Assembly: GCF_010728155.1 (NCBI RefSeq)
Contig: NZ_AP022605.1
Location: 1,736,001 to 1,800,000 of the forward strand
Length of the DNA: 64,000 nt
Reading direction: 5' to 3'
From: Mycolicibacterium doricum
Lineage (GTDB): Bacteria; Actinomycetota; Actinomycetes; Mycobacteriales; Mycobacteriaceae
Shown here: in pieces, positions 19,819-38,028 of the stretch
How positions within the stretch are numbered: position 1 is the stretch's first letter
How the letters are laid out: each line of letters starts with the position of its first letter
Notes under the pieces: model-generated
Seen by the model: the letters and a program-made list of their open reading frames with translations, nothing else
What the model was told of the DNA's origin: nothing
Database searches by the model: none
Program-made: the position numbers and the translations under genes

Positions 19819-20637
19819 ATGCCCGATGTGGCGACGCTCGAGCGTGCCCTGGACACTGCCGCTCGGGCACCCTCGGCCCAGAACGCGCAGCCCTGGCACT
19901 GGCGCGTCACGTCCGGCGGCGTCGACCTGTTCACCGACTGGAGTCGCCGACTGGGGGACAGCGAGGGTGATCGCCGCGACGTCCTGGTCAGTTGTGGTGC
20001 GGTGCTGCACCACTGCGCGGTGGCGTTCGCCGCCGTCGGATGGGCTCCGCGGGTGCACCGGTTCCCGGCTCGTGACGATGCCGACCATCTGGCGCTGATT
20101 GAACTGATCGAGGCGCCGCCGAGCGTTCGTGACAACGAACTGGCGGCGGCGATCCCACAGCGGCGGGCCGACCGGCGTCGCTATCGGGCGCAGCCGCTTC
20201 CTGAGGGCTCGCTGGAGTTGTTGCTTGTGCGTGCGGAACGCGACGGTGTGCGGTTCGGTGTGGTTCCGAAAGCTGGCTGGGGCCGGTCCACCCAAGGCGA
20301 CGTGGTGTTGCAGTACGGCCGGACAGTGGACGCACCGGCCGACGATGCGGTGCTGGTGGTGCTCGCCACCGAGGCGAACAACGATCTCGCGCAGCTGCGC
20401 GCCGGCGAGATCATGAGTGAGCTCATGCTGATGGCCACGGCGATGGGGTTGGCCACCTGTCCGCTTACGACGCCGCTGAGCGACACCCGCAGTCGACTGT
20501 CGTTGGCATGCGAGGTCTTCGACGGCGACGCGTATCCGCAGGTGTTGATCCGGGTGGGTTGGGCTCCGGCCGACGGCCCTCCGCTGCCGGTGCTCGAGCG
20601 GCGCTCCGTTCGCGAGACCACCACCTGGAGCATCTGA
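19819..20637 (+). CDS. Acg-type nitroreductase-like protein, shortened
   Basis: A 272-residue member of the Acg/Rv2032 group of nitroreductase-fold proteins, which sequester or use FMN and are linked to hypoxia regulons. ERALDTAARAPSAQNAQPWHW matches the FMN-phosphate-binding N-terminus, AAIPQRRADRRRY the middle, and AGEIMSELMLMATAMGLATC and LIRVGWAP the C-terminal part. The family is about 330 residues; the segment between FGVVPKAGW and GDVVLQYGRT lacks some 50 residues that normally form the active-site lid. ATG 19819 fits the homology although the frame extends upstream. Confidence 0.75.
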   Translation: MPDVATLERALDTAARAPSAQNAQPWHWRVTSGGVDLFTDWSRRLGDSEGDRRDVLVSCGAVLHHCAVAFAAVGWAPRVHRFPARDDADHLALIELIEAPPSVRDNELAAAIPQRRADRRRYRAQPLPEGSLELLLVRAERDGVRFGVVPKAGWGRSTQGDVVLQYGRTVDAPADDAVLVVLATEANNDLAQLRAGEIMSELMLMATAMGLATCPLTTPLSDTRSRLSLACEVFDGDAYPQVLIRVGWAPADGPPLPVLERRSVRETTTWSI

Positions 20638-21429
20638 ATCAGCCCAGCCGGGTGAGTTCATGGCGAACGCGCCAGGGTCGCCCAAGGCGAACATCTGCTC
20701 GGGCAGGAGGACGGTGCGGATCCCTGCGCCATCCACTTCACCGGGAAGACCGAGCCTGCGACCGACATCCGTGTCGGCAACGCGACCAACGGCACATGGG
20801 TCCCCGAGATGAACTGCAGGCCGACGGCCGGGCCGTTGGTGTTGACCGCTGCAGCAACGGCATTGCTGGCGGGATTTGCTGATGAAGATCCCCACCAGCG
20901 AACAGCTGATGATGCCGAGGAGGAACACCCGGGCCAATGTGAACCATCCATGCTCACGCGCTCGGTCAGGCGCGGATCGGCGAGTCCACCTCGACCACAC
21001 ATCCCGCGGCGCTGACGCAACTGCTTGGCATACGCGCTGGTCGACCAACCGCACTTCGAGCACTCATCGAAGCCGGATAACACCCGGCACCGATCGGTTA
21101 CCAGCGGTGGGCACCCAATTTTCGTGAGAGAGGTCCCCGAGCGGCGATTCATCCCCAACCCCGCGCTGGCCCGCAAGATGCGTTGCACTTCGCCGAGAGG
21201 TCGGCGTCCAGTGCAGATCAACTGGTAGCGGAACAACCCCACCGCCTGGCCTGGCTCGCGTCGCTTCTCATCCTCAGTGGGCCAGCCGGCGGTGTATAGA
21301 CACTTTAGAAACTCATGCCAATGCGTCTGGCGGCAGGCACAGCTCCGGCGGCAGTGTGCATATTATTGGGTGTACCTTTGCCGGCAACGGGCGGTAGCTG
21401 GCCATCAGCACTACGAGAGGAGAGATCGA
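20638..21429. other. 792-bp region without an intact gene
   Basis: No convincing intact gene. On the minus strand two alternating frames between about 21240 and 20650 contain protein-like pieces: a hydrophobic stretch WFTLARVFLLGIISCSLVGI near 20950, and LPEQMFALGDPGAFAMNSPG near 20700, each ending by frameshift. This looks like a decayed membrane or exported protein gene that I cannot identify. Confidence 0.4.
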
Positions 21430-21867
21430 GTGAATAGGAGTCTGCAGTTGTGGCCAAGACGCCGTGTCGTTGGCGCAGCTACTGCCGTTGCGGCGGCGGG
21501 CTTTGTTGGGCTGGCAGCAGCCGGCACTGGGGTTGCGCAACCGCCGCCACCGGACCCGTGTTCTCCCGCAGCAGTGATGCGTGTGCATGCCGGCGTGATG
21601 ACGCAAATGGCCGACTACCTGGACTCCCGTCCCGACGTTCAGCAGGTCTTCATCGATGCGAGAAGCAAGGCCACTTCTCAGGAACGGCACGCCGCTATCC
21701 AGTCATTCACTGATACTCATCCCGACGTGGCCGCTGCGTTCCAGAACATCCGCCGACCGATGCACGATCTGATGACGAGGTGCAACTTGCCCATGGGCTC
21801 AGGCATGATGGACCGGGGTATGGCGCCCGGGCAGATGGCGCCCGGAGCCACCGCACCAGGGCAGTAA
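21430..21867 (+). CDS. Hemophore-related secreted protein
   Basis: A 145-residue exported protein of the mycobacterial heme-binding (Rv0203-like, hemophore-related) family. An N-terminal twin-basic stretch (WPRRRVVGAATAVAAAGFVG) leads to a cleavable signal ending near VAQ. The mature domain has DPCSPAAVMRVHAGVMTQMADYL and NIRRPMHDLMTRCNLP, with the two conserved cysteines that close the helical fold. The tail is a Met/Ala/Pro/Gly repeat (MAPGQMAPGATAPGQ). GTG 21430 is preceded by GAGAGGAGAG, so this start is preferred over an upstream one. Confidence 0.8.
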   Translation: MNRSLQLWPRRRVVGAATAVAAAGFVGLAAAGTGVAQPPPPDPCSPAAVMRVHAGVMTQMADYLDSRPDVQQVFIDARSKATSQERHAAIQSFTDTHPDVAAAFQNIRRPMHDLMTRCNLPMGSGMMDRGMAPGQMAPGATAPGQ

Positions 21868-22094
21868 GTTCTTGCGACGCCCGCCGGCGGTCCGCGATAG
21901 GCGGCAGTTGCCGTCTCCGAGCTCAGCTCGGCTGGGTGGCCGGCGTAGTCTGTCGGTCCCGCTCGTGGTGAAAACGGCGGACGCGCAACGTCATATCGTT
22001 GAGGCGGCCACAAGCGGGATGGCCCATCGCGACCGACGTCGGCGCGCGCAATGGCTTATGGCGCGTCGACGGCCTATCGCACGTAGGGCCCACG

Positions 22095-22240
22095 GCCGTC
22101 ATGCCCGCGTCCTCGTGGTCGAGGATGTGACAGCAGTGGTAGACGCTTCGGCCCCGATAGCCCTTGAACGGAATGCGTAGACGTGCCCAGCCCCATGCGG
22201 GAATGGTTATCACGTCCCGTCGCGACCACGGCGAGCGAGC
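22095..22240 (-). pseudogene. 3' fragment of a multicopper oxidase
   Basis: The minus strand reads RRDVITIPAWGWARLRIPFK and then GYRGRSVYHCCHILDHEDAG, ending M. The HCH-x3-H-x4-M-type copper-binding signature of multicopper oxidases is plain, but one extra codon doubles the cysteine (HCCHILDHED where HCHILDHED is expected). Upstream cupredoxin domains are missing and the sequence after the motif degenerates. This is a dead remnant of an oxidase such as the mycobacterial copper-resistance oxidase. Confidence 0.75.
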
Positions 22241-22941
22241 GGGTGGTCGGGATACAGGGCCGCCGCCAGCTGCCGGTTCAGCACGAGGAGTCGCGGATCG
22301 TGGGCCTCCTCGGCCTTGCAGCGGCGACGGCGGTATGGCGGCAGGCCGGGTGACTGCCGGCGCCAGGGCCCTTCATACGTTGCCGCAGGCAACCCACTGC
22401 GCCGTGCGATCGAGAACCTCGAATACGCCGCCGAATAGCCACAGCGACGCTGCAACAGCTCGACCGCCTCGTCCGTTCGACGGCTGACAACGATCTTCGG
22501 CCACCGCTCCCGCCACTCCACATAGGTTCGCTATGCCCCCACGGTGCCGCCGACTCTCAAGAATGTCTGAATGAATGCAATGAGAATGTAGCGACCGCGA
22601 CCGACAGACACGGTCGTGTGCCCGCCAGCTGCTAGCTTGCTTCCCCTCCTTCTTCTGCGCGTCCTTCTTCTGCGCGTCCTTCCTCTGCGCGGCTACGGTC
22701 GAGCATCCCCGCCACTCAGTGGTCAAGCCACTGCTGCCCTCGTCGCCATGGACCTGGTGAGCGAGTGACGCAACATCGCCGTTGAGCGCCAGGGCGACGA
22801 CCTTCCAGCCGTCGACGGCGTCGATCTCGCTCACGATCGCGATGAAGTTGTCGCCGCAGGCGAGTAGCCCGCCCGCGAGCTTGACCCCGGGCAAGTGTGA
22901 AGGGCCGACAGTGGCTGATTACGGCTCATCATGGGTCACTG

Positions 22942-22977
22942 CGGGTGACAATGGCTGGCAACGGGTGACAATGGCTG
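22942..22977 (+). repeat. Two 16-bp direct repeats upstream of the antitoxin
   Basis: CGGGTGACAATGGCTG occurs at 22942-22957 and again at 22962-22977, a 20-bp (two helical turns) period. A weaker copy lies near 22905. They end 5 bp before the palindrome that overlaps the antitoxin start, so they could be additional repressor sites or a slippage product. Confidence 0.6.
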
Positions 22978-22982
22978 ACAAC

Positions 22983-23002
22983 CATGACACCATGGTGTCA
23001 TG
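22983..23002. promoter_or_regulatory. Perfect 20-bp palindrome overlapping the antitoxin start codon
   Basis: CATGACACCATGGTGTCATG is a perfect inverted repeat whose last three bases are the ATG of the ribbon-helix-helix antitoxin. Ribbon-helix-helix antitoxins typically bind such short palindromes in their own promoter, so this is the likely auto-repression operator. Binding is inferred. Confidence 0.7.
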
Positions 23003-23242
23003 AGTACGGTGACCAATGAGTCAGCCCAGCGCACCACTGGGCTGACCGTCCGGCTCCCTGGGGAAGTTGCGGACGCGCTGAAGAACTACGCCTTCGTGAC
23101 CGACACATCGGCCAACGAAGTTATCAAGCGCGCCCTCATCGAATACCTCAAGAATCACGGGCGGACCGAACTCATGGAGTCGGCGTTCGCCCGCGTCCTA
23201 CAGCAGCACAACGTGGCGCTGGACAAGCTGGCGGACATGTAG
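23000..23242 (+). CDS. Ribbon-helix-helix antitoxin of a Doc-type module
   Basis: An 80-residue protein with the ribbon-helix-helix fold: TTGLTVRLPGEVADALKNYA (strand plus helix A) and TSANEVIKRALIEYLKNH (helix B), then a C-terminal toxin-binding extension (ELMESAFARVLQQHNVALDK). It is followed without a gap by the toxin gene (TAG then TTG). The start codon lies within a perfect palindrome, which points to autoregulation. It appears intact although its toxin is frameshifted. Confidence 0.85.
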   Translation: MSTVTNESAQRTTGLTVRLPGEVADALKNYAFVTDTSANEVIKRALIEYLKNHGRTELMESAFARVLQQHNVALDKLADM

Positions 23243-23652
23243 TTGATCGTCTACCTCGTTACCGACGACGTTCTCACGATCAATCAACGGTTGGTCGGCC
23301 CTGATCAACTCCGCGATTTCGGACTGCTCGACGCTGCTGTCACCCGTCCGCAGATGAGCGCGCACGGCGCCGACGCCTTCCCGACCATCCACGAAAAGGC
23401 GGCGGCGCTGCTGCACGCGCTCGCCCGCACCCACCCGTTTGTCACCGCCAACAAGCGCACGGCGTGGATGGCGACGGCGATGTTCTACATGGTCAACGGC
23501 TACAACCTCTATACCGAAGCGGGCCAGGTCGTCGGCCTCAAGTGGATGTCGCCGAAGGGCAGATCGACGTACAGGGAATCGCGGCCATCCTCAAGGAATG
23601 GGCGCAAGACTTTGACACGTCCGACGAATGGATCGACGACATCGAAGGCTAG
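23243..23652 (+). pseudogene. Doc/Fic-type toxin, frameshifted near 23540
   Basis: A Doc-family toxin (kinase-like Fic fold that phosphorylates EF-Tu in phage P1). It starts TTG 23243 directly after the antitoxin stop: MIVYLVTDDVLTINQRLVG. The Fic motif reads HPFVTANKRTAW, with Ala where Gly is usual. After YTEAGQVVGL, near 23535-23545, a 1-base loss shifts the frame; the expected end, VDVAEGQIDVQGIAAILKEW then AQDFDTSDEWIDDIEG, is read in the next frame and stops at 23652. The unshifted frame runs into non-homologous Arg/Ser-rich sequence. The toxin is probably inactive unless the shift is a sequencing error. Confidence 0.8.
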
Positions 23653-24184
23653 TGAGCGCCGCGCCAGTTGTGCCGGTGCGGATCAGTCGGTCTCAGCGAC
23701 GTGAGTTAGCGATCAAATGGGAGCCGCTGAACGCGTGCGTCCTTGTGTATCACGTATCAGCATTGCCGCGCCGACGACGAGCCTAAAACACGCGGCCGAA
23801 CATGGTTCGAGGGCGTCAGCCCAGCCTTCGAGGATGTCGTCGGCAAATTCAGCGAGTGCGGCAGAGAGTAGCTGGTCGCCGCGGGCGCGGGCATGCTCGC
23901 CAGTGTTCTGCGTTAGTCGCTGCCGTAGACGCCGGACTGAGCAATCTCAAGGAAACAGCAGGCGTCGTCGCACAGGCGTCGACATTTCGCGCCTGCGACG
24001 AAACCTGGGCGCACAATGATCAGGCTGGCGAATCGATCGGCGCGGGCGCTGCACGACGGGGTCAATTACTCTGCGTACTTGCCCGTACCATCTCGGCGGC
24101 GGTGGCTCGCATCTCAGTTGACCTCACCCGCGCCGATCGGCCGGTCCCCGGGCTACTGGGAGGCCTTTTGTGCGTCTAAAATCC
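23653..24184. other. 532-bp region without a recognised gene
   Basis: No intact gene. On the minus strand, about 23925 down to a stop at 23713, a remnant reads LLSAALAEFADDILEGWADA followed by LEPCSAACFRLVVGAAM, which has good codon character but no upstream start and no recognised family. The rest shows no convincing coding signal. Confidence 0.4.
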
Positions 24185-24252
24185 CGTGATGGTGAAGAAT
24201 CGGTGATGGTGAAGAATCCGTGATGGTGAAGAATCCGTGATGGTGAAGAATA
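24185..24252 (+). repeat. Four tandem 17-bp repeats carrying a start codon
   Basis: The unit CGTGATGGTGAAGAATC is repeated four times head to tail (24185, 24202, 24219, 24236), with one base difference in the second copy and one at the end of the fourth. The unit is the GTG-ATG-GTG-AAG-AAT start region of the YefM-like antitoxin remnant that continues from the fourth copy. It is a short local duplication. Confidence 0.9.
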
Positions 24253-24386
24253 TTGTGCTGTCGGCGGCCAAGGACAGGCTTCAGCCTATGTCGATGGGGC
24301 GGGGAAAGCCCACGAGGTCATCCAGATCGCCCGCCACGGCTGAGTGGCGCGGTGATCATGTCCGCTGATGACCTTGAATCGCTGGG
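24240..24386 (+). pseudogene. YefM/Phd-like antitoxin remnant
   Basis: Three frames together spell an antitoxin: MVKNIVLSAAKDRLQ (from ATG 24240), then after loss of one G at 24284 AYVDGAGKAHEVIQIARHG, then after a stop and another shift LSGAVIMSADDLESLG. This is the Phd/YefM pattern (LSxAKxRL ... ITRHGxPxAVxMSxDDxxSLEE). Two frameshifts and one stop make it non-functional. Confidence 0.75.
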
Positions 24387-24575
24387 CTATCCAAGCCGCT
24401 GCGATACGAGTTCGAGGGCCGGCGGGTGGTGCGCCGTGGTGACTACCGCGTGACGTTTTGCATTCACGGTCGCCCCACAGGTTTCGCGCTTCGGGTCATA
24501 GCCCCCAGTGAGAGCGAGAGTTTACGTAGCGGCATCCGCCTTAACGTTGCCGTAACGAACCGTCAATTACCGTGA
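24387..24575 (+). pseudogene. RelE-like toxin remnant
   Basis: Directly after the antitoxin remnant the frame starting at 24387 reads LSKPLRYEFEGRRVVRRGDY then RVTFCIHGRPTGFALRVI. RelE toxins have the same block (GKPLRYELEG ... RRGDYRVxY). The N-terminal half is deleted, and the antitoxin and toxin pieces are joined at LESLG/LSKPLRYE, so a deletion has removed the antitoxin end and toxin start. The frame ends at 24575 inside the start of the next gene. Confidence 0.7.
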
Positions 24576-27202
24576 CCTGGGTGCTGGAGGCGATGCCATC
24601 GACGTTGGGAGTGGAAGAGGAATTTCACCTCGTCGACCTCAACACTCGGCGATTGACGGCGCGTGCGCCGGAACTGCTCGGCGATTTGCCAAGCAGCTAC
24701 GTGGCGGAGTTGCAGCGCTGCGTCGTCGAAATGAACAGTGCGGTCACGCACTCCCTCGACGACCTCGACCATGAGCTACGCGAGCGGCGCCGGGTGCTGG
24801 TCGATGCGGCGTCGGCCCTGGGCATCGGGGTGGTGGCGGCGGGGGCGGTGCCGTTGTCGGTGCCCGCCGAGATGCAGGTGACCGCGACTCCGCGCTACCG
24901 CCAGATGCTGGCCGACTACCAGCTGCTGGCCCGTGAGCAGCTGATCTGCGGCACGCAAATCCACGTCGGTGTCGACGACCGGGACGAGGCCGTTGCGACA
25001 GCCAACCGGGTGGCGCCGTTCCTGCCCATCTTGTTGGCGCTGTCGGCGAGCTCGCCGTTCTGGTCGAACGGCTCGGACACCGGCTACAGCAGCGTGCGGA
25101 CACTTGTCTGGCAACGATGGCCGACGACGGGACCGGCTGCGCCGGTCGCGACCGCCGCAGAGTACGACGCCCTGATCCAGGATCTCATCCGCAGCGGTGT
25201 CATCACCGACGCCGGAATGGCGTATTTCGACGTTCGTCCGTCGAATTCGGCGCCGACGCTGGAGCTGCGCATTTGCGACAGCTGTCCATCCGTCGCGACG
25301 ATCGTGTTGATCGCCGGCTTGTTCCGCGCCGTGGTCCAACGTGAAGTCGACGCACTGCGGCGCGGTGTGCCGGCGACGGTGATCTCCCCGACACTGTGCC
25401 GTGCAGCGACCTGGCGGGCCGCGCGCTCTGGGCTGGAGGGTGAGCTGGTCGACGTCCAGCACCCGGCCAGTCGGCCCGCCAGCGCCGTCGTGAGCTCGTT
25501 CGTCGAGTCCCTGCGGCCTCAGCTCGAGGAGTTCGGCGACTGGCCGAAGGTCAGCGGGCTCGTCCGAGAGGTGCTCGTGGCGGGAACGTCCGCCGCTCGC
25601 CAGCGTCGTGCGCTGCGCCGCAGGGGCCGACTCACCGACGTGGTCGACCAACTCGTCGCCGAGACGGCGGGACGCTGGCCTGCCACCGTGGCGGCCGCCG
25701 CCGCCGACCCCTCCCTGCTGTTCGGCTACCAGGTCGCTGAAGGCCCCGCCTCTGCCGACACCGAATCGCAGCAGCCCGCCGTCTGCTACGACGAGGCCAT
25801 CGAACCCGGCGGCGTACCGCGCCGGCACTACAAGGCGATCTTCGACAGCGTGGCCAGCCTCGGTGCCGCTAGGTTGCGGGCCCGCGAAAGTGCGATTGAG
25901 CAGGACCAGCGCGCCGGGGGCATCACCTTCCGCGTCAACGGTCAGGAACGGGCCCAGGTGTTCCCGGTGGACCTGGTTCCCCGCATCATCACCGCCGAGG
26001 ATTGGCACACCCTGACAGTGGGCCTGGCTCAGCGTGCCCGAGCTCTCAACGAGTTCCTTCGCGACATCTATGCCGAGCAGGCGATCCTGCACGACGGAAT
26101 CCTCGACGAGCATGCGCTTGACCGCGCCCCCGGCTTCCGCTCGACGGGGCGCGTCTTCGCCGGGCCGGTACGCGCCCACATCAGCGGCACCGATCTGATC
26201 TGCGACCGAGACGGGCATTGGCTGGTGTTGGAGGACAACCTGCGGATCCCGTCCGGCACTGCGTACGCGGTCGCCAACAGGCGCCTGCTGGACCGGCACG
26301 TGCCCGAATGGCACCGTCCCGCGACGACGGCCGATGTCGACGATGTGCCCCGCATGCTTTTCGAAACGCTGCGCGCCAGCGCTCCGGTGGAGGCGCCCGA
26401 CGACCCGCAGGTGGTGCTGTTGTCTGCGGGCTGGGAGGACTCGGCGTGGTTTGAACACACCTTCCTGGCCGAGGAGATGAACGTCGCGTTGGCGCATGCC
26501 TCGAACCTCTCGGTGCGCGACGGCGTCCTGTGGCGTCACCTCGGGCGCGGCCAAACCCGTGTCGACGTCCTCTATGTGCGCATGGACGAGGACATGCTGC
26601 TGTCGTCGCCCGGCTATGACGGGGAGCCACTGCGCGCAGGCCTCCTTCAGGCGCTCGCGTCGGGCACCCTGACGATCGCCAACGCCCTCGGCAACGGCGT
26701 CGGCGACGACAAGGCGATCTACCCCCGCGTGCCGGCGATGATCAAGTACTACCTCGGCGAGGAACCGCTGCTGCCGCAGGTGCGGACCTGGGTGTGCGGA
26801 CAGCGCGACGAACGCGATCACGTCCTGGCTCATCTTGCTGAGTTGGTCGTCAAGCCCATCGACGGATTCGGCGGCAGCGGTGTGCTCATCGGACCCGAAT
26901 CCTCGGACGCCGCGATCGAGCAGCGCCGTCGCGAACTGCTCACGCAGCCAGAACGATTCGTCGCCCAGGACACGGTGCGCCTGTCCACCCACCCTACTTT
27001 CGACGGTGAAGGAATGTATCCACACCACGTCGATCTCAGGGCCTTCGTTCACCTGCGGCCGGGAACCGGTGACTCTGTCACCGCGCACGTGCTGCCCGCC
27101 GCGCTGACACGGGTCGCGACACGCGGTTCGAGCATTGTCAACTCCTCGTCGGGTGGAGGCAGCAAAGATACCTGGATCGGTACCGGGCAGCCGGTGTTCT
27201 GA
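24572..27202 (+). CDS. Carboxylate-amine ligase (YbdK/GCS2) fused to a circularly permuted ATP-grasp domain
   Basis: An 876-residue two-domain ligase. Residues about 8-370 form a glutamate-cysteine-ligase type 2 (YbdK) domain: STLGVEEEFHLVD, CGTQIHVGVDD and APTLELRICDSCPS are the metal- and substrate-binding motifs. Residues about 410-860 match circularly permuted type-2 ATP-grasp proteins: EPGGVPRRHYKAIFDSV, RIITAEDWHTLTVGLAQRA, VLEDNLRIPSGTAYAVANR and VKPIDGFGGSGVLIGPE. The start is uncertain: GTG 24572 has no clear ribosome site, while GTG 24581 or ATG 24593 follow closely. The amidotransferase gene starts 12 bp downstream. Both domains form amide bonds from ATP, so a short peptide is the likely product; the substrate is unknown. 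Confidence 0.88.
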   Translation: MTWVLEAMPSTLGVEEEFHLVDLNTRRLTARAPELLGDLPSSYVAELQRCVVEMNSAVTHSLDDLDHELRERRRVLVDAASALGIGVVAAGAVPLSVPAEMQVTATPRYRQMLADYQLLAREQLICGTQIHVGVDDRDEAVATANRVAPFLPILLALSASSPFWSNGSDTGYSSVRTLVWQRWPTTGPAAPVATAAEYDALIQDLIRSGVITDAGMAYFDVRPSNSAPTLELRICDSCPSVATIVLIAGLFRAVVQREVDALRRGVPATVISPTLCRAATWRAARSGLEGELVDVQHPASRPASAVVSSFVESLRPQLEEFGDWPKVSGLVREVLVAGTSAARQRRALRRRGRLTDVVDQLVAETAGRWPATVAAAAADPSLLFGYQVAEGPASADTESQQPAVCYDEAIEPGGVPRRHYKAIFDSVASLGAARLRARESAIEQDQRAGGITFRVNGQERAQVFPVDLVPRIITAEDWHTLTVGLAQRARALNEFLRDIYAEQAILHDGILDEHALDRAPGFRSTGRVFAGPVRAHISGTDLICDRDGHWLVLEDNLRIPSGTAYAVANRRLLDRHVPEWHRPATTADVDDVPRMLFETLRASAPVEAPDDPQVVLLSAGWEDSAWFEHTFLAEEMNVALAHASNLSVRDGVLWRHLGRGQTRVDVLYVRMDEDMLLSSPGYDGEPLRAGLLQALASGTLTIANALGNGVGDDKAIYPRVPAMIKYYLGEEPLLPQVRTWVCGQRDERDHVLAHLAELVVKPIDGFGGSGVLIGPESSDAAIEQRRRELLTQPERFVAQDTVRLSTHPTFDGEGMYPHHVDLRAFVHLRPGTGDSVTAHVLPAALTRVATRGSSIVNSSSGGGSKDTWIGTGQPVF

Positions 27203-27214
27203 AGGAGGGGTGCG

Positions 27215-28996
27215 ATGTGCGGCATCTGTGGTGACATCACGTTCGACGGCACGTCGGCTGACCTGTCAGCGGTCAACCGCATGACCGCGGCGATGTCCAG
27301 TCGGGGCCCGGACTCCGACGGTGTCGTCGCCTACGGCCGGGTGGCCTTCGGTCACCGGCGCCTGTCGATCATCGATCTGTCGGCCTGCGGTGCACAGCCG
27401 ATGGTGGACAGCGAACTGGGGCTCACACTGGTCTTCAACGGCTGCATCTACAACTACCATGAGTTGCGCGCCGAATTGCAGTATGCCGGCTACGGCTTCT
27501 TCTCGACCGCCGACAGTGAGGTTGTCATAAAGGCCTATCACCGGTGGGGACCCCGGTGCGTCGAGCGGTTCAAGGGCATGTTCGCGTTCGCGATCGCCGA
27601 CCGCGACACCGGTGTGGTTGCCCTCGCCCGCGACCGGCTGGGCATCAAACCGCTCTACCTGGCCGAGGCAGCGGGTCGGCTCCGCTTCGCCTCCACGATC
27701 CGTGCACTGCTTCGGGGCGGTGACGTGGATACCGACATCGACCGGCACGCACTGCACCACTACATGACGTTTCATTCGGTGGTGCCCGCCCCACGCACTA
27801 TCTACCAGGGCGTCCGGAAGCTGCCGCCGGCCACCGTCCGGGTCATCGCGCCGGACGGCACGCACGAGGACACCGTGTATTGGAACCCGGTGTTCAGCCG
27901 TCAACCGGAGCGGTCCTCCTGGTCCGCCCGGGACTGGCAACACGCCGTGCTGGACGCGTTACGCACCGCGGTGGACCGGCGCATGGTCGCCGATGTGCCC
28001 GTCGGTGTGCTGCTCTCCGGCGGCATCGACTCCTCGCTCGTCGTCGCCCTGCTGGCCGAGCGGGGCCAAACCGAACTGGAGACCTTCTCGATCGGATTCG
28101 ACTCTGCCGGCGGCGAATCCGGCGACGAATACCAGTATTCCGATCTGGTTGCCGACACCTTCGGCACCGAGCATCACCGCATCCATATCGACAGCTCAAG
28201 GTTGGTTCCCGCGGTCGCCCCCACCATCGCGGCGATGAGCGAACCGATGGTGAGCCATGACTGTGTGGCGTTCTACCTCTTGTCCGAGGAGGTGAGCAAG
28301 TCGGTCAAGGTGGTGCAGTCGGGTCAGGGCGCCGACGAGATCCTCGCCGGCTACGACTGGTATCCACCGCTTGCCAGCGTCGCCCGCAACCAGGTGACTG
28401 ACGCCTACGCGAAAGTGTTCTTCGACCGCACCCACGACGATATCCGAGCGCTCCTCGCACCCGACTTCCACCTCGATCGCGACGTCAGCTACGACTTCGT
28501 CGCGGCGCACCAGGAAGCAGCCGGCGCCGACAGCGCGGTCGATGCCGCGCTGCGCCTGGACACGACGGTCATGCTGGTCGACGACCCGGTCAAGCGGGTG
28601 GACAACATGACGATGGCCTGGGGACTGGAGGCCCGGGTGCCGTTCCTGGACCACGACTTCGTCGAACTGGCCGCGACTTGTCCCCCCGAACTGAAACTGG
28701 CCTCCGGCGGCAAGGGGGTGCTCAAAGACGCGGCCCGCACGCTGTTGCCGGCCGAGGTCATTGACCGCACGAAGGGCTACTTCCCGGTGCCGGGCATCCG
28801 CCACCTGCACGGCGAGGTGCTCGACCTGGTGCGAGAATCTTTGACCAACAAGGCCGCTCGCCAGCGCGGCCTTTATCAACCCAAAGCGGTCGAGGTGATG
28901 CTCGCCGCGCCCAACGACCAACGGACCACTCTCGGGTCGAACGCGTTGTGGCAGCTCGCGGTACTGGAAATGTGGTTGCAGGCGATGGAGTCCTGA
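27215..28996 (+). CDS. Asparagine-synthetase-type amidotransferase (N-acetylglutaminylglutamine amidotransferase-like)
   Basis: A 593-residue class-II glutamine amidotransferase. Cys2 (MCGICGDITFDG) is the glutaminase nucleophile; the N-terminal domain continues with SRGPDSDGVV and GHRRLSIIDLS. The C-terminal synthetase domain has the PP-loop VPVGVLLSGGIDSSLVVAL and SGQGADEILAGYDWYPPL. The segments MSEPMVSHDCVAFYLLSEEV and ALHHYMTFHSVVPAP are typical of the type that amidates N-acetylglutaminylglutamine, an osmolyte dipeptide, rather than of housekeeping AsnB. GAAGGAGG precedes ATG 27215. It probably amidates the peptide made by the upstream ligase. The acetyltransferase and peptidase of the known osmolyte operon are not here. 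Confidence 0.88.
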   Translation: MCGICGDITFDGTSADLSAVNRMTAAMSSRGPDSDGVVAYGRVAFGHRRLSIIDLSACGAQPMVDSELGLTLVFNGCIYNYHELRAELQYAGYGFFSTADSEVVIKAYHRWGPRCVERFKGMFAFAIADRDTGVVALARDRLGIKPLYLAEAAGRLRFASTIRALLRGGDVDTDIDRHALHHYMTFHSVVPAPRTIYQGVRKLPPATVRVIAPDGTHEDTVYWNPVFSRQPERSSWSARDWQHAVLDALRTAVDRRMVADVPVGVLLSGGIDSSLVVALLAERGQTELETFSIGFDSAGGESGDEYQYSDLVADTFGTEHHRIHIDSSRLVPAVAPTIAAMSEPMVSHDCVAFYLLSEEVSKSVKVVQSGQGADEILAGYDWYPPLASVARNQVTDAYAKVFFDRTHDDIRALLAPDFHLDRDVSYDFVAAHQEAAGADSAVDAALRLDTTVMLVDDPVKRVDNMTMAWGLEARVPFLDHDFVELAATCPPELKLASGGKGVLKDAARTLLPAEVIDRTKGYFPVPGIRHLHGEVLDLVRESLTNKAARQRGLYQPKAVEVMLAAPNDQRTTLGSNALWQLAVLEMWLQAMES

Positions 28997-29188
28997 TCGG
29001 AGGCCGATGGCGTCTCTAGACGGTGGCTCTCAACTGCTGACAGGGCAGCGATTCACGCATCGAGGGCCGCCGTCACCAAGGATCGCCGCGAGTCTGGCGC
29101 AGCGTAGCTGTCGAAACGATGATCGCGGCAGGTCACTTGACCGCGCGGTCGGGTGTCCGAGCGCTGATGGATCGTTGCGTCTGAGGTT

Positions 29189-30277
29189 TCAGGCGGTGAC
29201 GGCGGCTGCGGCGTCGATGATGCCGGCACCAAGTCGTCGATCTGCGCTGGGGTTGGTCGCGGTGTCCGCGAGTATGGTCATCACCTGTTCGGCGCTGCGC
29301 CCCTGGGCGAGCAGCAGCGCGGCGACGCCGGCGACGAGCGGGCTGGCCATCGACGTGCCGGACAGTGTGGCGTATCCATCGGTGCCCTGCGGCCACCCGG
29401 TGGTCGGGCCGATCGGAGCGGTGGACAGGATGTCCTGGCCTGGCGCGGCGATGGACCGCAGGTCGCCGGTGTTGGTGAAGCCGGTCGGCTGGCCGTTCTG
29501 GTCGCTCGCCACGACAACCATGACCGGTACCCCAATGCGGTACACGCGCTTGCGGTCGCTGTCGTTGCCGGCGGCCCCGACGACAACGACCCCAGCCGCG
29601 CCGGCACGGCGGATCGCGGCGTTGATCGGGCCGCCCTTGCTCAGCCGGCCCGCCAGACCGGACTCACCCAGGGACAGATTGATCACGTTCGCTCCGTGCT
29701 CGGTGGCCCAGTCGATGCCGGCGGCGATGGTGTCGTCGCTGCCGGCGCCGTTGGCGTCGAGGGCGCGCACCGGCATGATCTTGGCGTCGGGGGCGGCCCC
29801 GATGATGCCGATGCCGTTGTTGGCGGCCGCGGCCGCGATGCCTGCCACGTGGGTGCCATGACCATGGGGGTCGGCGGCTTCCGTGCTGTTGGTGAGCACG
29901 TCGTAGCCGCCGACCAGCTTGCCCGCCAGATCGGGGTGGGCGGGGTCGACACCGGTGTCGACGATGGCGATCACCTGCCCGCTGCCGGTGGAGTGCTCCC
30001 ACGCGCCGGGCAGGCGCGCCGCATCGAGCGCCCACTGGTTGACACGCAGCGGGTCGGGTGCGCCCGGTGTGGCCGGCGTCATGGTTTGTGACGTCGACAC
30101 GATTCGTGGATGGGTAGGGGCCGGCACGCCGACGTTGGTGCATGCAGTCAGCGCCGCGGCGGCAACCAGCCCGAGAATGGCAACGTGAGTACCGATCCGC
30201 TCGGGCCTGGAGGGGTCAGCAAATGTCCGCTGGCCGCGCAAGACGAACCGAACGCGGCCATCCTGCCAAGGCGCCAT
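29189..30277 (-). CDS. Subtilisin-like serine protease (S8), probable lipoprotein
   Basis: A secreted S8 peptidase of about 362 residues. The catalytic triad is visible: Asp in VIAIVDTGVDPAHPDLAGK, His in HGHGTHVAGIAAAA and Ser in LSGTSMASPLVAGVAALL, with the oxyanion Asn in VVVGAAGNDS. The N-terminus has a hydrophobic segment HVAILGLVAAAALTACTN whose LTAC fits a lipobox, so the enzyme is probably anchored outside the membrane. The start is uncertain (ATG 30277 chosen; the frame extends to 30550). Unlike ESX mycosins it has no C-terminal membrane helix and no ESX genes nearby. Confidence 0.85.
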   Translation of the reverse strand: MAPWQDGRVRFVLRGQRTFADPSRPERIGTHVAILGLVAAAALTACTNVGVPAPTHPRIVSTSQTMTPATPGAPDPLRVNQWALDAARLPGAWEHSTGSGQVIAIVDTGVDPAHPDLAGKLVGGYDVLTNSTEAADPHGHGTHVAGIAAAAANNGIGIIGAAPDAKIMPVRALDANGAGSDDTIAAGIDWATEHGANVINLSLGESGLAGRLSKGGPINAAIRRAGAAGVVVVGAAGNDSDRKRVYRIGVPVMVVVASDQNGQPTGFTNTGDLRSIAAPGQDILSTAPIGPTTGWPQGTDGYATLSGTSMASPLVAGVAALLLAQGRSAEQVMTILADTATNPSADRRLGAGIIDAAAAVTA

Positions 30278-31259
30278 TCCTTGACGACGTGCAGCTTGTG
30301 GCCAGTGTGCCGGCTCAGGCATCGCCGCCCCGGCTGGGAGTGCCAAATCATCGGCGATGTCGTGATCGCGCCCGTCCCAGTCAGACGGTCCGTCTCCCGC
30401 CGCGAAAACCCGCACGCATCGCATCGTCTCTATCACGGCGTTTGGTGAGCGTGAGGATCTCCGGCACGTCTGTCGATACCGTCCATCTACTTGCCGTGTG
30501 ACGAACGTCCAACCGCTGCTCGTGCATCCGTCATCGTTTACAAGTGTCAATGGACATACAAGGATCCAACGCGTCGCCCAGCGCAGCGCTCCTCATCGCT
30601 GTCCTGAGCGCACGAACCACATAGCGGTGCCGCGCGGCATATCTTTCCGCATCGGCCGAGCAGTGATTGAATTCCGAGGCTGACTAGGCATTGGCGGCAT
30701 CGAGGACGTGTTCGTGCAAAGTTTCCGAGCTCGCTGTTGATCTTGCTCATGGATTCCGGAGTCACATGATCGCGAATGCGGGAGTCGATGTGGCGGCTCG
30801 CTGCGTGTCGGATTGATCGCCTATTTGGGGGGCACCGAGGCGGCCAACTCACGTTGATCATCACTGTGTCGAAGCCGAAGTCCGTGCGATCCTCACCGCG
30901 GGATTGGCGGGTGAAGATGTCCCCATGTCGGTGCTGCTGGCCGCGACACTGGCTCCCTATGACGATTCTTTGATCGCGGCCGTCGCCCAGGCCGCCGGCA
31001 AGATTGTCGTGACCCGCAACACCCGACACGTAGAACGCTTGGTGTCCGATGCCTGGACCCGTGGAGTTGTCGCTGAGGCGATTGTCTGTCAATGGACAAT
31101 TGTCGCGGCCAGTCTGGCCGGAGCCCGGGCGGGACTCTCCAAGCATCCCCGGTTTCATGCACACCGCGCTACGTGTGACCGCGGTGTGCTCTCTGGCCTG
31201 GAGTCCAGCGACCCCGCGACTCCTTCGACCATGACAGTGATGTGCTCGAACGCCGGCCC
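30278..31259. other. 982-bp region between the protease and the IS element, with a PIN-domain remnant
   Basis: No intact gene. On the plus strand about 30925-31060 reads LAATLAPYDDSLIAAVAQAA and GKIVVTRNTRHVERL, similar to the C-terminal block of VapC PIN-domain toxins (DxLIAAxA ... LVTRNxxHF), but the start, the first acidic motif and any VapB partner are missing. The remainder shows no convincing coding pattern. The right edge is the target site of the IS21-family element. Confidence 0.45.
31255..31259. repeat. 5-bp target-site duplication, left copy (GGCCC)
   Basis: GGCCC directly abuts the TGTCG end of the IS21-family element and is repeated at 33902-33906 on the other side. A 5-bp duplication is within the 4-8 bp range of IS21-family transposition. 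Confidence 0.7.
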
Positions 31260-31320
31260 TGTCGCTTGCCAGGGTGATGGGACCACCTGGTTGCCAGTGG
31301 GATGGGACCACCGTGGCGCG

Positions 31321-32117
31321 TTATTGAGGATGCTCGTCGGGGTGGTCTGGGTCAAGCCGGCCGCCGCGGGTCCGTTGGCGGTAGGACGGTCCTTCGATGA
31401 CGAGGGTGTGGGCGGTGGCGGTCAGCCGGTCGATCGCCGATTGGGCCAGCAGGGTGTCGGCGGTCATGGTCAGCCATTCGGCGGGTTCGCGGTTGGAGGT
31501 CACGATGGTGGTTTTGGTGCGGTGGCGTTCGACGACGATTTCGTAGAAGTCGCTGGTCTCGGTGGCGTCGAGGGGCCGCAGCGCGAAGTCGTCGATGATG
31601 AGGACGTCGGTGGCGGCCAGTCGGCGGATTTCGGTGTCGACGGTGTTGTCGAGGCGGGCGGCGCGCAGCCTGGTGAACAGCTTGTCGGCACGGCCGAACA
31701 GGACGGTGTGTTTGCGGCGGATTGCTATGTGTCCCAGGGCTGTTGCTAGGTGGGTCTTGCCGACGCCGACGGGTCCGAGGATGATCGCTGACTGGCCGGC
31801 GTCGAGGAATCTCAGTGAGGTGAGGTCGCCGAGTAGGGTGCGGTCATAGCGCAGGTCGTGTTGTGCGGTCCAGGTGTCCAAACGCATGCCCGGGTCGAGT
31901 CCGGCTTTGGTGGCTCGTAGTGCGGCTGAACGGGATTCGCGGCGGGACACTTCGTCGGCGAGCAGTGTTTCGAGGAACCGATGTGGCTGAGTTTGTGTTG
32001 GCGGGCCAGGGCGGCGCGTTCGGGCAAGGTGTCGGCCAGCGCGCCGAGTTTGAGGGTTTTGAGCAGGCGGGTCAGGTCAGCGCCGACCGGGTCGGCGGGG
32101 GCACGGTGGGTGGTCAT
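31321..32117 (-). pseudogene. istB: IstB helper ATPase, frameshifted
   Basis: IstB is the AAA+ ATPase that selects the target and activates the transposase. From ATG 32117 the N-terminus reads DLTRLLKTLKLGALADTLPE and HKLSHIG. Near 31985 a 1-base loss shifts the frame; the remainder, SRRESRSAALRATKAGLDPG, the Walker A GPVGVGKTHLATAL, Walker B DVLIIDDFALRPLDATE and IVTSNREPAEW, runs in the next frame to 31321. Length and motifs are otherwise complete. Confidence 0.88.
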
Positions 32118-32118
32118 G

Positions 32119-33741
32119 TCAGCAGGTCTCCTCGGAATCGGTAACGGGCACTACGGTCAATGATGTTTTGGTGACGTTGAATTCGGATGGGTTGCGGGTG
32201 AACCGGGTGGCTGTTTGGCCGACTGCTTGCGGTAGTGTCGGGGCGGTGTTCTCGGTGGCGCGTTGCAGCATGGAGGCGATCTTGTTGACCGAGACGACGT
32301 CGAGGTCCAGCGATAAGGAGCATGCTTGTTCGACGCGCTGCGCGCCGCGGCGCACCAGGCCTTGGAGCCGGTAGACGGTGCGCATCCGGGTCCAGGGCAG
32401 CGGGTCATCGAGGATGCGTTCGGCGTAGATCCCGATATTGGGGCCGTGCGCCGCGCACGCGGCGATCAACGCCGCCAGGTCCCGCAGCGCGTAACCCGCT
32501 TTGTGTTCGGGCAGGTCAGCACGGTCGGTGCTGCGGCCACCGGCCGGCTGGCGAGGATGGACTTTCACCAGCGTGGCGCGGTGATAGAACTTCACCAGCT
32601 CACTGTCGGCGCGTACGTCCAACGTGTGCCCGATCCAGCACTCGGGCAGCGAATACAGGGCTTTGGCGACTTCGGCGTGGAAATCGCGGTGTACCTTGAC
32701 CGCTTTGAACATCGGCACGTCATAGGTCCCCGGCACCGTGAGTAGCGTCGGTTGTTCTTCGGCGGTGAACACCTCCAGGGGACGTGCGCAGGTGGTGCCG
32801 TGGATGCGGGTACCGGCAGTGCGCACACCAAGTCATCACAGCCTGCTGCGCCTGTTCGAGACTGGTGAATGTTTCACCGTCCCAGAAGTTTCGGCGCACA
32901 TACTGCACAGTCCGCTCCACCCGCGGCTTGTCTTTGGGGGAGCGAACCCGGGCCGGGTCGGTGAGGAATCCGGCATGACCGGCGTAGTCGAGCCACCCGC
33001 GGGTGAACTGCGGGTTGACCGCATCGGCGGCGGCGATCACCGGCTTGAGATTGTCGGGGATCAGCACCGCGAACACGCCGCCGAAGAATCCCCACGCCGC
33101 CTGGCACCCGGCGATCACCGCCGCCAGGGTCTGCGAATACGACAACCACACGAACATGTGCCGGGAATAGACGGCGGTGAAGATCAACGCGTGCACCTTG
33201 CGGCGCCGCCCATCAGCAGCATCGGTGAGCATCCCCAGATAGCCGAAATCGATCTGGCATTCCACCCCCCGGATCACCATCAGCGACCCGCACCGTGGTG
33301 CCCTTGCGGCCGAAACCGCAACGCTCACTGGCGAATCGGTGCAACGTCCGATACGGAACCACACACCCCTGCCGGGCCAGCAACGTCTCAATCTTGGTGA
33401 TCGTCAACGGCCGCTGCTCACCATCGCCGGCCACCCAAACTTTGATCTGCTCCTCGAACCCCAACAGCTGCTCCCAGGCGGCGCCGTGACCATCTGGGCG
33501 GGCAGGACGCACCGCGTCGGCGACCACCCCCGATCAACCCGTCATCGAGGGCGCTGACATCGCCGTCGCGGCGCAGCCCGGCTGCCTGCGCGGCCTCCAC
33601 GTAGCGGCGCACCGTTTTGCGGTCCACGCCGCAATGCGCGGCGATCGTGCGGTACCCCGGCTCCGGCGGTAGCCCCGCCACCCCCAGCCACACCCGCAGC
33701 ACTTCCCTGATCTCGTTCACACTGACCTCCCGAAAAACCAT
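32119..33741 (-). pseudogene. istA: IstA transposase, broken by several frameshifts
   Basis: The DDE transposase of the IS21 element is split over at least four reading frames: the N-terminal helix-turn-helix (VNEIREVLRVWLGVAGLPPE, GYRTIAAHCGVDRKTVRRYV; to about 33535), the linker (LTITKIETLLARQGCVVPYR; about 33500-33300), the catalytic core (GVECQIDFGYLG, VLIPDNLKPVI, KPRVERTVQYVRRNFWDG; about 33290-32825), and the C-terminal part (TYDVPMFKAVKVHRDFHAEV onward to 32119). The three acidic residues are still there, but no continuous protein can be made. Its stop is 1 bp from the istB start. Confidence 0.88.
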
Positions 33742-33901
33742 GCCCGCCGCCCTCCGTGACTTGAGCTGTCACAGCGATCGAACGAACAAACGAAGAGACC
33801 ACCGACGCGACGCGCCGGTGGTCCCATAACTGGCAATCCAGGTGGTCCCATCACCCTGGCAAAATCAGGTCACACTGGTCCCAAGCTCCTGGCAAACGAC
33901 A

Positions 33902-34337
33902 GGCCCGTCAGTGTTGTCCAACCGAACATCGTGGAGGTACTTCGGCTGCAATCAGCATGCCTGCCGACGCTGGGACCGCACGAATTTACTGGGCTATCCT
34001 CTTCGGCGACAGATGAAGACAGCGACGTCGAGTGGATACCGCAGCGACGGATCAGAGCGCCCAGACCTGACTCGCTCTTTCGCCCCAATAGTGCAAGCTG
34101 CTTGCGGTCGAAGTACTCAAGGTTCCCCACATGGGTTACAAGCCGTGGCGCTTACCTTGTACGCACAAGATCACCGTCTCCAAGTGGCAGAGGTCCGTAT
34201 GCATCCTCGGCGGTGTTTGCCCAAGCGACGCCCACCCACGCTTGGGCCTCCAGCGCAATGTCCGTGGTACGAAGAGGACACCCCGCAGTAACGCTTCGCT
34301 GTTTGCCTTGAACCCAGGCAGAGAGAGGAAGTGTGCC
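33902..34337. other. Leader region between the IS element and the monooxygenase gene
   Basis: It begins with the right copy of the GGCCC target duplication (33902-33906). No gene is recognised in its 436 bp. It carries a 9-bp perfect stem with an 11-base loop at 34219-34247 and a good ribosome site (GAGAGAGGAA) just before the TTG start at 34338, so it is probably the promoter and transcribed leader of the downstream operon. Confidence 0.5.
34219..34247 (+). promoter_or_regulatory. Stem-loop in the leader of the monooxygenase operon
   Basis: GCCCAAGCG and CGCTTGGGC form a perfect 9-bp stem around an 11-base loop, about 90 bases before the TTG start. There is no following T-run, so it is not a simple intrinsic terminator; an attenuator or protein-binding site is possible. 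Confidence 0.45.
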
Positions 34338-35636
34338 TTGACCGAAAAATTCCATCTGGGATGGTTCCTGAACTTCGTCGCTGACGAGTGGAACGGCAAT
34401 TGGGGTGACGGTGGGCGCGACTTCACCGGCGATTTCTACGTCGATGTGGCCCGTGACTTCGAGCGCGCCAAGTTCGACTACATCCTGATCGAAGACAAGC
34501 TAATGGTGTCGACCGCTTTCGGTGGCACGATGGAGCACGACCTCAAACACGGGATCAACCCCAAACACGACCCGGTTCCGCTGGCTGTCCTGATCGCCTC
34601 CGCCACGAATCATATCGGCGTCATCCCAACGATGTCGACAAGCTTCTACCCACCCTTCCTGCTGGCCCGGTTGTGCAGCACCATCGACCACATCGCCCGG
34701 GGACGGTTCGGCTGGAACGTCGTGACCTCCGGCGAAGACCGTTCTGCCCAGAACTTCGGCATGGACAAGCTCTATGAGCACGATGAGCGCTACGCGATGG
34801 CGAGCGAATACATGGAAGTAGTCAGCAGGCTTTGGGAGTCGTGGGAACCGGACGCCATCGAGCGCGATTACGAGACCGGGACGTACGCAAACTTCAAGAA
34901 GGTCAACACCATTGACTTCGAAGGCAAGTACTACAAGAGCCGCGGTCCGCTGAATACCGCGCCTTGCCCACAGTACCGGCCCACCATCGCCCAGGCCGGC
35001 GCCTCGCCCCCTGGACGCGAGCTGGCCGCACAGCACGCCGACACGATTGTTGCACCGGCCAACGGCGTCGAGGCGATGAAGGCCTACCGCGACGACATCC
35101 ACGACCGGATGACGGCCAATGGGCGCGACCCCTCCGAGTGCAAGGTGCTTTACCTGGTGTCGCCAATCGTGGCCGACACGCACGAGGAGGCGCTAGCCAA
35201 GCGGGACCGGTGGTTCAATACCCCGTCCTACATCGAATACATGTTGGCGGAGATCTCTTCCATCACTGAGATCGACTTTTCACAGTTCGATCTCGATCAG
35301 CCGCTGGGAGAGCTGACGACCAACGGCGAGCGGGGCTCGCTGGAGAGTTTCCTGTCGCGAGGCAAGGGCAAGACGCTGCGCGAGATCGTCACTGGCAGCG
35401 GCCTCACGGCCAACATCCCGCTGGTCGGCACACCTGCCGAGGTGGCCAAGGAGATGGGCGACCTGATGGAGCAGGTTGGCGGTGACGGCTTCCTCATCAC
35501 CAGCCCGGTGATGCGACTCAACCGCCGCTACGTCACCGAGATCACTGACGGGCTGGTACCCGAGCTACAGAAGCTAGGCCTGACCCGCTCGGAGTACACC
35601 ACCACCATGTTGCGAGACACGTTGCGCGAGTTCTGA
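34338..35636 (+). CDS. NtaA/SnaA/DszA-family flavin-dependent monooxygenase
   Basis: A 432-residue bacterial-luciferase-fold monooxygenase of the class that uses FMNH2 from a partner reductase to break C-N or C-S bonds (nitrilotriacetate, EDTA, dibenzothiophene sulfone, dimethyl sulfide). It starts at TTG 34338 (LTEKFHLGWFLNF) behind GAGAGAGGAA. Family landmarks are TMSTSFYPPFLLARL, GRFGWNVVTS, AQNFGMDKLYEHDERYAMA, FEGKYYKSRGPLNTAPCPQ and GGDGFLITSP. It is clearly paralogous to the enzyme at 42064-43380. The next gene starts 4 bp after its stop, so they form one operon. Confidence 0.92.
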   Translation: MTEKFHLGWFLNFVADEWNGNWGDGGRDFTGDFYVDVARDFERAKFDYILIEDKLMVSTAFGGTMEHDLKHGINPKHDPVPLAVLIASATNHIGVIPTMSTSFYPPFLLARLCSTIDHIARGRFGWNVVTSGEDRSAQNFGMDKLYEHDERYAMASEYMEVVSRLWESWEPDAIERDYETGTYANFKKVNTIDFEGKYYKSRGPLNTAPCPQYRPTIAQAGASPPGRELAAQHADTIVAPANGVEAMKAYRDDIHDRMTANGRDPSECKVLYLVSPIVADTHEEALAKRDRWFNTPSYIEYMLAEISSITEIDFSQFDLDQPLGELTTNGERGSLESFLSRGKGKTLREIVTGSGLTANIPLVGTPAEVAKEMGDLMEQVGGDGFLITSPVMRLNRRYVTEITDGLVPELQKLGLTRSEYTTTMLRDTLREF

Positions 35637-35639
35637 ACC

Positions 35640-36800
35640 ATGACTGTCATCAGCACGCGGTGCCGCGTGCCCATTGCCGACACTGCAGCATCGGCTTCGA
35701 TCGCCGCTGCAGTCGATGCCCTGCGCGTCGGCAACATGGTGATCGTGGTCGACGCGGAGAATCCCGACGACGACGGCGATCTCACGATCGCCGCCGCGCA
35801 TGTCACGCCGCAGCGGTTGGCGTTCATGATGCGTCACACAGGTGGCATCCTCTGTGTACCGATGCCTGCGGCCGACTTGGACCGGCTGCACCTGCCGCCC
35901 ATGGTCGCAATGAGCCAGGACCCGCGAGGCGTGGGATACGCGGTATCAGTGAACGCCAGGACGGGGATCACCACCGGCATCTCCGCGACCGATCGGGCCA
36001 CGACGATCTCCCTGCTGATCAACCCCGATACCCACCCCAGCGACCTCCGCAGGCCCGGCCACGTGTTCCCATTGCGGGCAGTCGACGGCGGGGTGCTGCG
36101 TCGGGCCGGGCACACCGAGGCGGCCGTCGATTTGGTGCGAATGGCCGGGCTGCCGCCCGTCGCGGTGATCGGCGAAGTGGTCGACGATGACGGTTGTGTC
36201 GCCCGCGGGCACCGCCTACATGCGTTCGCCGCCACGCACAGGTTACCCGTCGTGACGATGGCCGAGCTGATTGCTTACCGCCGCCGCACCGAGCGCCTGG
36301 TGGAGTTCAAGGCCTCCAGTCGACTGCCCACCCGACACGGTGAGTTCCGCGCGCATGGCTTCCGATCCGTGTTCGACGACCGTGAACACATCGCGCTGGT
36401 GATGGGGGAGATGCCTGGATTGCACACGTCGCCGACGCTTGTCCGGGTGCAGTTGGAGTGCCTGCTGGGCAATGCGTTCAAGTCGGGACTGTGTGATTGC
36501 GGCGCCAAGCTGGATCATTCTCTGGAGATGATCGCTGACGAGGGCACCGGCGTCGTCGTGTATCTGCGCGGGCAGGGTGGTCGGTGCAGCGGGCTGCTGC
36601 CCACGTCGGCGCCGAACCCAGAGCAGGACAGGCCCGACGACAGGCGGGACTATGGCGTCGGCGCACAGATTCTCGCCGACCTCGGTGTGCGGCGCATGCG
36701 GCTGTTGACGAACAATCCGGTGAAGCGGATCGGACTGGAAGCATATGGTCTCGAAGTCACCGCGACTGAATGCCTACCGCGCAGCTCTGACACCGGCTGA
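35640..36800 (+). CDS. RibBA-like protein (DHBP synthase / GTP cyclohydrolase II fusion) with altered motifs
   Basis: A 386-residue paralogue of the riboflavin enzyme RibBA. The N-terminal half resembles DHBP synthase (GTGISATDRATTISLL-type segment, RPGHVFPLRAVDGGVLRRAG, HTEAAVDLVRMAGL), but the acidic motif usually written DREENEGD-like reads ENPDDDGD. In the cyclohydrolase II half the zinc cysteines remain (ECLLGNAFKSGLCDCG), whereas the first His of HSECLTGD is Gln and the catalytic RGxEGRGIGL reads RGQGGRCSGL. About 14 residues before DYGVGAQIL are missing and the C-terminus is short. It lies between the monooxygenase and an MFS gene, so it probably serves flavin-related catabolism rather than housekeeping riboflavin synthesis. 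Confidence 0.82.
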   Translation: MTVISTRCRVPIADTAASASIAAAVDALRVGNMVIVVDAENPDDDGDLTIAAAHVTPQRLAFMMRHTGGILCVPMPAADLDRLHLPPMVAMSQDPRGVGYAVSVNARTGITTGISATDRATTISLLINPDTHPSDLRRPGHVFPLRAVDGGVLRRAGHTEAAVDLVRMAGLPPVAVIGEVVDDDGCVARGHRLHAFAATHRLPVVTMAELIAYRRRTERLVEFKASSRLPTRHGEFRAHGFRSVFDDREHIALVMGEMPGLHTSPTLVRVQLECLLGNAFKSGLCDCGAKLDHSLEMIADEGTGVVVYLRGQGGRCSGLLPTSAPNPEQDRPDDRRDYGVGAQILADLGVRRMRLLTNNPVKRIGLEAYGLEVTATECLPRSSDTG

Positions 36801-37948: not shown

Positions 37949-38028
37949 CTCAGGCGCATCACCCAGGCCCGAGCCCGTTAACAACCATCTGGTGAAGTGG
38001 TCGCGGGGTTTTATGGAAGGATTGGACC

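Follow-up and report, generated by a model that had tools for sequence, protein, structure and literature searches.

The closest described counterpart of the locus analysed here is the pathway for N-acetylglutaminylglutamine amide (NAGGN), which combines the amidotransferase AsnO with Ngg, an acetyltransferase-ATP-grasp protein, and in some bacteria with an M42 peptidase. NAGGN has been identified by NMR in the actinomycete Micromonospora provocatoris (PMC8146288), and asnO-ngg pairs without the M42 peptidase have been reported, mainly from Mycobacterium (PMC8070244). The Mycolicibacterium doricum DNA studied here, a stretch of 64,000 nt at C1:1736001-1800000 hereafter called the window, carries an AsnO-type gene preceded by a gene for a fusion of two ligases (Table 1). 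Judged from its sequence, this pair is genuine and intact and belongs to a gene set conserved in actinobacteria that is NAGGN-like in kind but has other ligases and another peptidase; its function is predicted.

Table 1. The fusion-asnO pair and its surroundings (positions in the window)
Feature	Positions	Strand	Details
Doc (Death-on-curing) family toxin gene, upstream of the pair	23243-23704		TIGR01550 46.8 bits (cut-off 38.65)
17-bp tandem repeat	24184-24251		about 320 bp upstream of the fusion
Promoter element TTAAC-n6-GTAAC, partly GlnR-site-like	24541-24556	+	only match in the window; 0.01 expected
Fusion, single open frame carrying both ligase domains	24572-27202	+	876 aa
GCS2/YbdK ligase domain of the fusion	24572-25690	+	PF04107 186 bits; residues 12-288
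Circularly permuted ATP-grasp domain, up to the stop codon	25772-27202	+	PF14403 406 bits; CP_ATPgrasp_2, fusion residues 470-849
AsnO-type amidotransferase, glutaminase and synthetase domains	27215-28996	+	593 aa; TIGR03104 961.5 bits (cut-off 570.1); GATase_7 and Asn_synthase
S8 peptidase, convergent with asnO	29189-30550	-	type VII mycosin-like, 211 bits (cut-off 278.75)
IS21-like istB and transposase pieces, across several frames	31321-33741	-	
Row of NtaA/DmoA-family FMN monooxygenase, RibAB-like protein, MFS transporter and GntR regulator	34131-38841		

The ligase fusion and the adjacent amidotransferase

The initial annotation had described a GCS2/YbdK ligase fused to a circularly permuted ATP-grasp domain and followed after 12 bp by a NAGGN-type amidotransferase, and the profile matches bear out both genes. 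The GCS2 domain scores above the cut-off of the YbdK family model TIGR02050 and matches the YbdK structure 1r8g in a sequence search of the PDB, the circularly permuted (CP) domain matches 3n6x (332 bits), and the fusion exceeds the NF010041 cut-off (368 versus 332 bits). The architecture itself is already on record, as seen from the NCBI name of one relative ('carboxylate--amine ligase/circularly permuted type 2 ATP-grasp protein'); among the titles and abstract starts of the matches listed from the open-licence PMC literature, we found none joining these parts. The true start of the fusion is probably the GTG at 24581 and not 24572, since the database prediction of the same protein has 873 aa and relatives begin at the same distance, to about 2 bp, from a common upstream motif. 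The conserved motif residues of both GCS2 and ATP-grasp are present, and alignment with 28 related fusions revealed no altered invariant column in either the GCS2 (0 of 71) or the CP domain (0 of 73); no loss of catalytic residues is seen in either ligase. AsnO retains Cys2 and SGGIDSS, and compared with 25 relatives it keeps 167 invariant columns, with one altered (E to D at residue 7).

An AlphaFold2 model of the fusion was of moderate quality (mean pLDDT 71.7, pTM 0.59) and was therefore used for fold matches only. These include 3n6x, YbdK, eukaryotic-type glutathione synthetases, glutamate-cysteine ligases, the Pup ligase PafA and, weakly, the bifunctional glutathione synthetase 3ln7. The glutamate-cysteine ligases probably correspond to the first domain and the glutathione synthetases to the second, the match table carrying no ranges, which suggests that a gamma-glutamyl bond would be formed first and a second amino acid added next. 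Proteins and peptides are also known substrates of ATP-grasp, GCS-fold and AsnB-like enzymes, and the match with PafA would suit enzymes that modify a protein or ribosomal peptide instead of free amino acids. We consider such a substrate quite unlikely, because no further gene was common to most loci compared, among the matches listed and for ORFs of at least 90 aa, and because AsnO is nearest to a dipeptide-amidating family.

Conservation of the gene set and the distant S9 peptidase

Named relatives of the pair come mainly from Mycobacterium and Williamsia. The fusion is followed by asnO in 17 of 20 related loci, three of them near-duplicates (L084 of L083, labelled Nevskia; L094 of L091; and L087), and in the same 17 the next gene encodes an S9-type peptidase of about 625 aa (PF00326, 159 bits) with acylaminoacyl peptidases as PDB matches. 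The flanks of L087 reach 100% identity with Williamsia muralis although its label is Kitasatospora arboriphila, so that contig is probably mislabelled or contaminated. In L079 and L093 the sequence ends less than 2 kb from the fusion, and L095 extends 10 kb beyond the fusion without asnO; positions 1-2408 of L095 are a second fusion copy, with broken reading frame, in the MAG bog_759, which also contains L089. By gene order, then, the 'compact two-gene unit' of the initial annotation is an incomplete set, to which the S9 peptidase belongs as third gene.

In a draw of 298 genomes of the order (fusion threshold E <= 1e-115), 31 had a fusion match, 30 of them full length and one (G132) with the CP part only. 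Conserved pairing of the two genes, which had been proposed as a check, holds in 25 of these 30 genomes, where asnO adjoins the fusion with gaps of at most 262 bp. Separate distribution, which would have counted against a joint pathway, is nevertheless seen in part: in four of the 30 (G086, G153, G225 and G278) asnO is not adjacent, with no AsnO found by HMM near the fusion in the stretches fetched, G009 and G113 have asnO-S9 but no full-length fusion match, and G004 carries the fusion and asnO-S9 on separate contigs. G209 counts neither as linked nor as unlinked because its asnO starts at the edge of another contig. The S9 gene comes next in 22 of the 25 fusion-asnO genomes, the exceptions being the present genome (G000), G272 and G125 (contig edge), and in G153 it directly follows the fusion. 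A phylum-wide draw yielded the fusion in 5 of 396 genomes (E <= 1e-130), namely this one and four of one other genus; asnO is next to the fusion in three of these four, the other (G634) has S9 next and no adjacent asnO, and two of the four have a disrupted CP frame.

The same components also occur rearranged or unfused. G154 has asnO, S9, GCS2 and CP as four separate genes in a row, the order asnO-S9-CP is found in G054, G096, G112 and G098, and GCS2-asnO-S9 without CP in Streptomyces fungicidicus, Embleya and Nonomuraea; on two Streptomyces plasmids, asnO-S9 stands without a ligase in the stretches shown. The occurrence of the two fusion domains as independent genes beside asnO and S9 is good evidence for one shared pathway. 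Counting against it, CP proteins near S9 have lost ATP-grasp motif residues in G073 and G124 (asnO-S9-CP) and in G051 (S9-CP). CP proteins with such losses, and hence possible pseudoenzymes, are encoded beside S9 at L129 (11318-12718), L142 (11658-13082) and L132 (9948-11387), in L129 and L142 also beside asnO. Solo GCS2 genes about 70% identical to the first domain of the fusion occur in L154 (8010-9149, a Mycobacterium branderi plasmid) and L071 (9113-10195), with no asnO or S9 match beside them in the stretches fetched. An OsmC-family gene adjoins the Streptomyces fungicidicus operon and could speak for a glutathione-amide-like thiol product (gamma-Glu-Cys-X-amide), as could the membership of GCS2 in the gamma-Glu-Cys ligase family and the fold match of the fusion to glutathione synthetases. 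Such a thiol is nevertheless very unlikely, as the selected neighbours scanned with Pfam include no conserved thiol reductase or peroxidase and mycobacteria use mycothiol and ergothioneine as their thiols. One study (PMC4213376) reports glutathione amide as undetected in Allochromatium vinosum.

In the present genome (4.03 Mb) the S9 gene lies at C1:2709129-2710988, about 0.94 Mb from the pair. Its frame is open, the GWSYGG, HGGNDTNV and DDGHEI motifs are present, and its product is 80% identical to the S9 peptidase of L077. Nine genes flanking the L077 operon, one of them partial, are found in the same order at this S9 locus, from which the fusion and asnO are missing, and G010 (L141) has the same empty arrangement; the 650 bp upstream of the S9 gene contain no significant trace of the pair. 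In trees, this S9 peptidase groups with those of L076, L077 and L141 and the CP domain of the window is placed near L076 and L077 (support 86), the placement of the GCS2 domain is without resolution, and the AsnO of the window branches outside 12 other mycobacterial AsnO. A recent simple transposition of the pair was considered and is not proven, the AsnO placement disagreeing with those of S9 and CP; the position of the pair may reflect relocation with faster evolution or replacement by a distant copy. Of the 35 same-genus genomes in the order draw, 22 have an S9 match (E <= 1e-40) but 3 a full-length fusion, which implies that the peptidase serves another purpose or persists where the pathway is lost.

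The upstream region of the pair contains an element matching the pattern TTAAC-n6-GTAAY, several relatives having GTAAT in the second half. In 1.62 Mb of locus sequence (overlaps included) the pattern has 12 matches, 11 of them 31-39 bp upstream of a fusion start codon and the twelfth in L074; with two repeats removed, the 11 represent nine distinct mycobacterial loci including the window, which are related and thus not independent. By region, 7 of 29 fusion upstream regions carry it and 22 do not, among them those of the mycobacterial loci L077, L078, L080, L082 and L083. The GlnR site of Mycobacterium smegmatis is given as Gn2AC-n6-GnAACA or AC/T-n9-AC (PMC3662644); the element in the window fits AC-n9-AC and the GnAAC half, its first G and final A do not fit, and a stricter GlnR pattern misses it (one match elsewhere, 1.54 expected). 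We take this as a weak lead that hints at nitrogen control rather than a response to salt. No repeats flanking the pair were present among those listed for 22500-31500, no RNA family reached the gathering score in 20000-36000, and the window has no tRNA.

This setting, with a Doc toxin gene, tandem repeats and IS21 pieces around a pair that stands apart from its S9 gene, might suggest a relocated leftover without function, and the end branch of the CP domain is long (0.39 versus a median of 0.19). Against this, both frames are open, no family-invariant ligase residue is lost, the promoter motif is kept and the distant S9 gene likewise has an open frame and its motifs, and we regard loss of function as quite improbable.

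AsnO and its relation to ngg-linked enzymes

The acetyltransferase and peptidase genes of the NAGGN operon had been noted as not adjacent, which is confirmed. The genome has its own NAGGN-type pair, a second asnO with ngg alongside (C1:1412972-1416513), and its one match to Ngg (TIGR03103) above the cut-off (C1:1412972-1414612) lies there and not beside the fusion; the sole match to the M42 peptidase model TIGR03106 reaches 97 bits (cut-off 397.75). Among 30 fusion genomes tested for ngg (29 of the 30 of the order draw, all except G209, plus G004), it is absent (E <= 1e-100) from 26 and present in G000, G004, G218 and G272, so the fusion-asnO pair neither needs nor excludes ngg.

In a quick tree of 53 AsnO rows, with SH-aLRT support only and no bootstrap, 36 rows from these operons, the window included, cluster together (SH-aLRT 98), a few of them with a missing partner, and all 15 ngg-linked rows fall outside; the AsnO of the window does not group with the latter. 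The tree was rooted on the very long branch of the AsnB-like protein of this genome and has long branches at the root; it leaves out duplicates or near-duplicates (L055, L056, L084, L087 and L094) and 14 of 28 actinobacterial ngg-linked rows. All 28 entered a comparison of alignment positions, made without L161 and the outgroup, in which 29 ngg-linked and 36 other AsnO show five fixed differences (90% within each set), all in the synthetase half. When the comparison is narrowed to the 22 fusion-linked AsnO, the differences number 13 (90% per set), 12 of them in the synthetase half; one of the 13 is residue 381, where all 29 ngg-linked sequences have H and 20 of the 22 fusion-linked ones have D. 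The close similarity of the synthetase domain to that of ngg-linked AsnO makes glutamine the probable amidated residue; we infer a similar amidated end with a different remainder. The NCBI equivalog TIGR03104 takes in both operon-linked and ngg-linked AsnO and, as the operon group is free of ngg-linked rows, its name 'N-acetylglutaminylglutamine amidotransferase' probably claims too much. What this argument leaves uncovered is a second AsnO (E <= 1e-200) in eight fusion genomes of one family, f15 (G207, G241, G263, G271, G295, G299, G310 and G313), in which ngg was not found at E <= 1e-100. On a Polaromonas plasmid (L161, 4001-9573), an AsnO gene is followed by genes for transaldolase, phosphoglucomutase and phosphoketolase, with no ngg annotated in the stretch.

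The pair could make NAGGN itself, or a nearly identical compound, with the fusion replacing Ngg, as AsnO exceeds the NAGGN equivalog cut-off and is almost identical to ngg-linked AsnO in its synthetase motifs, and most fusion genomes tested lack ngg. We judge this unlikely: the fusion has no acetyltransferase domain (Pfam domain scan), no match to the Ngg model lies beside the annotated operons while the genome's own ngg pair (L067) is apart, ngg is already present in four of the 30 fusion genomes tested, among them the present one, and the AsnO of the operons form a separate group.

Predicted pathway and comparison with known systems

We infer the substrates, the order of steps, the product and any osmotic or other physiological role of the pathway as follows. 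The pair would be the biosynthetic part of a three-component pathway of ligase(s), AsnO and S9 peptidase. Peptide synthesis would begin at the GCS2 domain, most likely with a bond between the gamma-carboxylate of glutamate and an amino acid; the CP domain would attach a second amino acid, and AsnO would amidate the C-terminal carboxylate at the expense of glutamine. Hydrolysis or trimming of the product would fall to the S9 enzyme, which is encoded here at its distant locus. That the ligases make a short, probably gamma-glutamyl-started peptide, which AsnO amidates and S9 degrades or trims, is the reading we favour and find fairly probable, and it upholds the short amidated peptide of the initial annotation as a predicted product. 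A broader proposal, which we put forward tentatively as possible yet closer to doubtful than to probable, is an actinobacterial NAGGN-like family with an AsnO-S9 core and exchangeable ligases (GCS2 alone, CP alone, or the two together as separate or fused domains), in which every combination would yield its own amidated and probably gamma-glutamyl peptide, acting as a storage or protective solute under nitrogen control. If true, the NCBI equivalog name would be shared by two or more pathways, and mycobacteria and their relatives would have a class of small amidated peptides still to be discovered, with GCS2-asnO-S9 and fusion-asnO-S9 as a natural comparison for what each ligase adds.

Bifunctional glutathione synthetases of the GshF type (3ln7) also fuse a glutamate-cysteine-ligase-type domain to an ATP-grasp domain, but the fusion differs in its ligase subfamily (GCS2), its circularly permuted ATP-grasp and the amidotransferase next to it. 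Carboxylate-amine ligases of the YbdK family (1r8g) share the GCS2 domain, which in the window is joined to a second ligase and linked with AsnO. Solo CP_ATPgrasp_2 proteins have the CP domain but no GCS2 domain; they include 3n6x and a paralogue in this genome (C1:2606983-2608365, 44% identical), with no GCS2, AsnO or S9 matches in the surrounding 16 kb. The NAGGN pathway resembles the present set in an AsnO above the TIGR03104 cut-off with nearly identical synthetase motifs and in its logic of ligase, amidotransferase and peptidase, whereas here GCS2 and CP-ATP-grasp domains stand in place of Ngg, an S9 peptidase takes the place of the M42 enzyme, and AsnO belongs to a group of its own.
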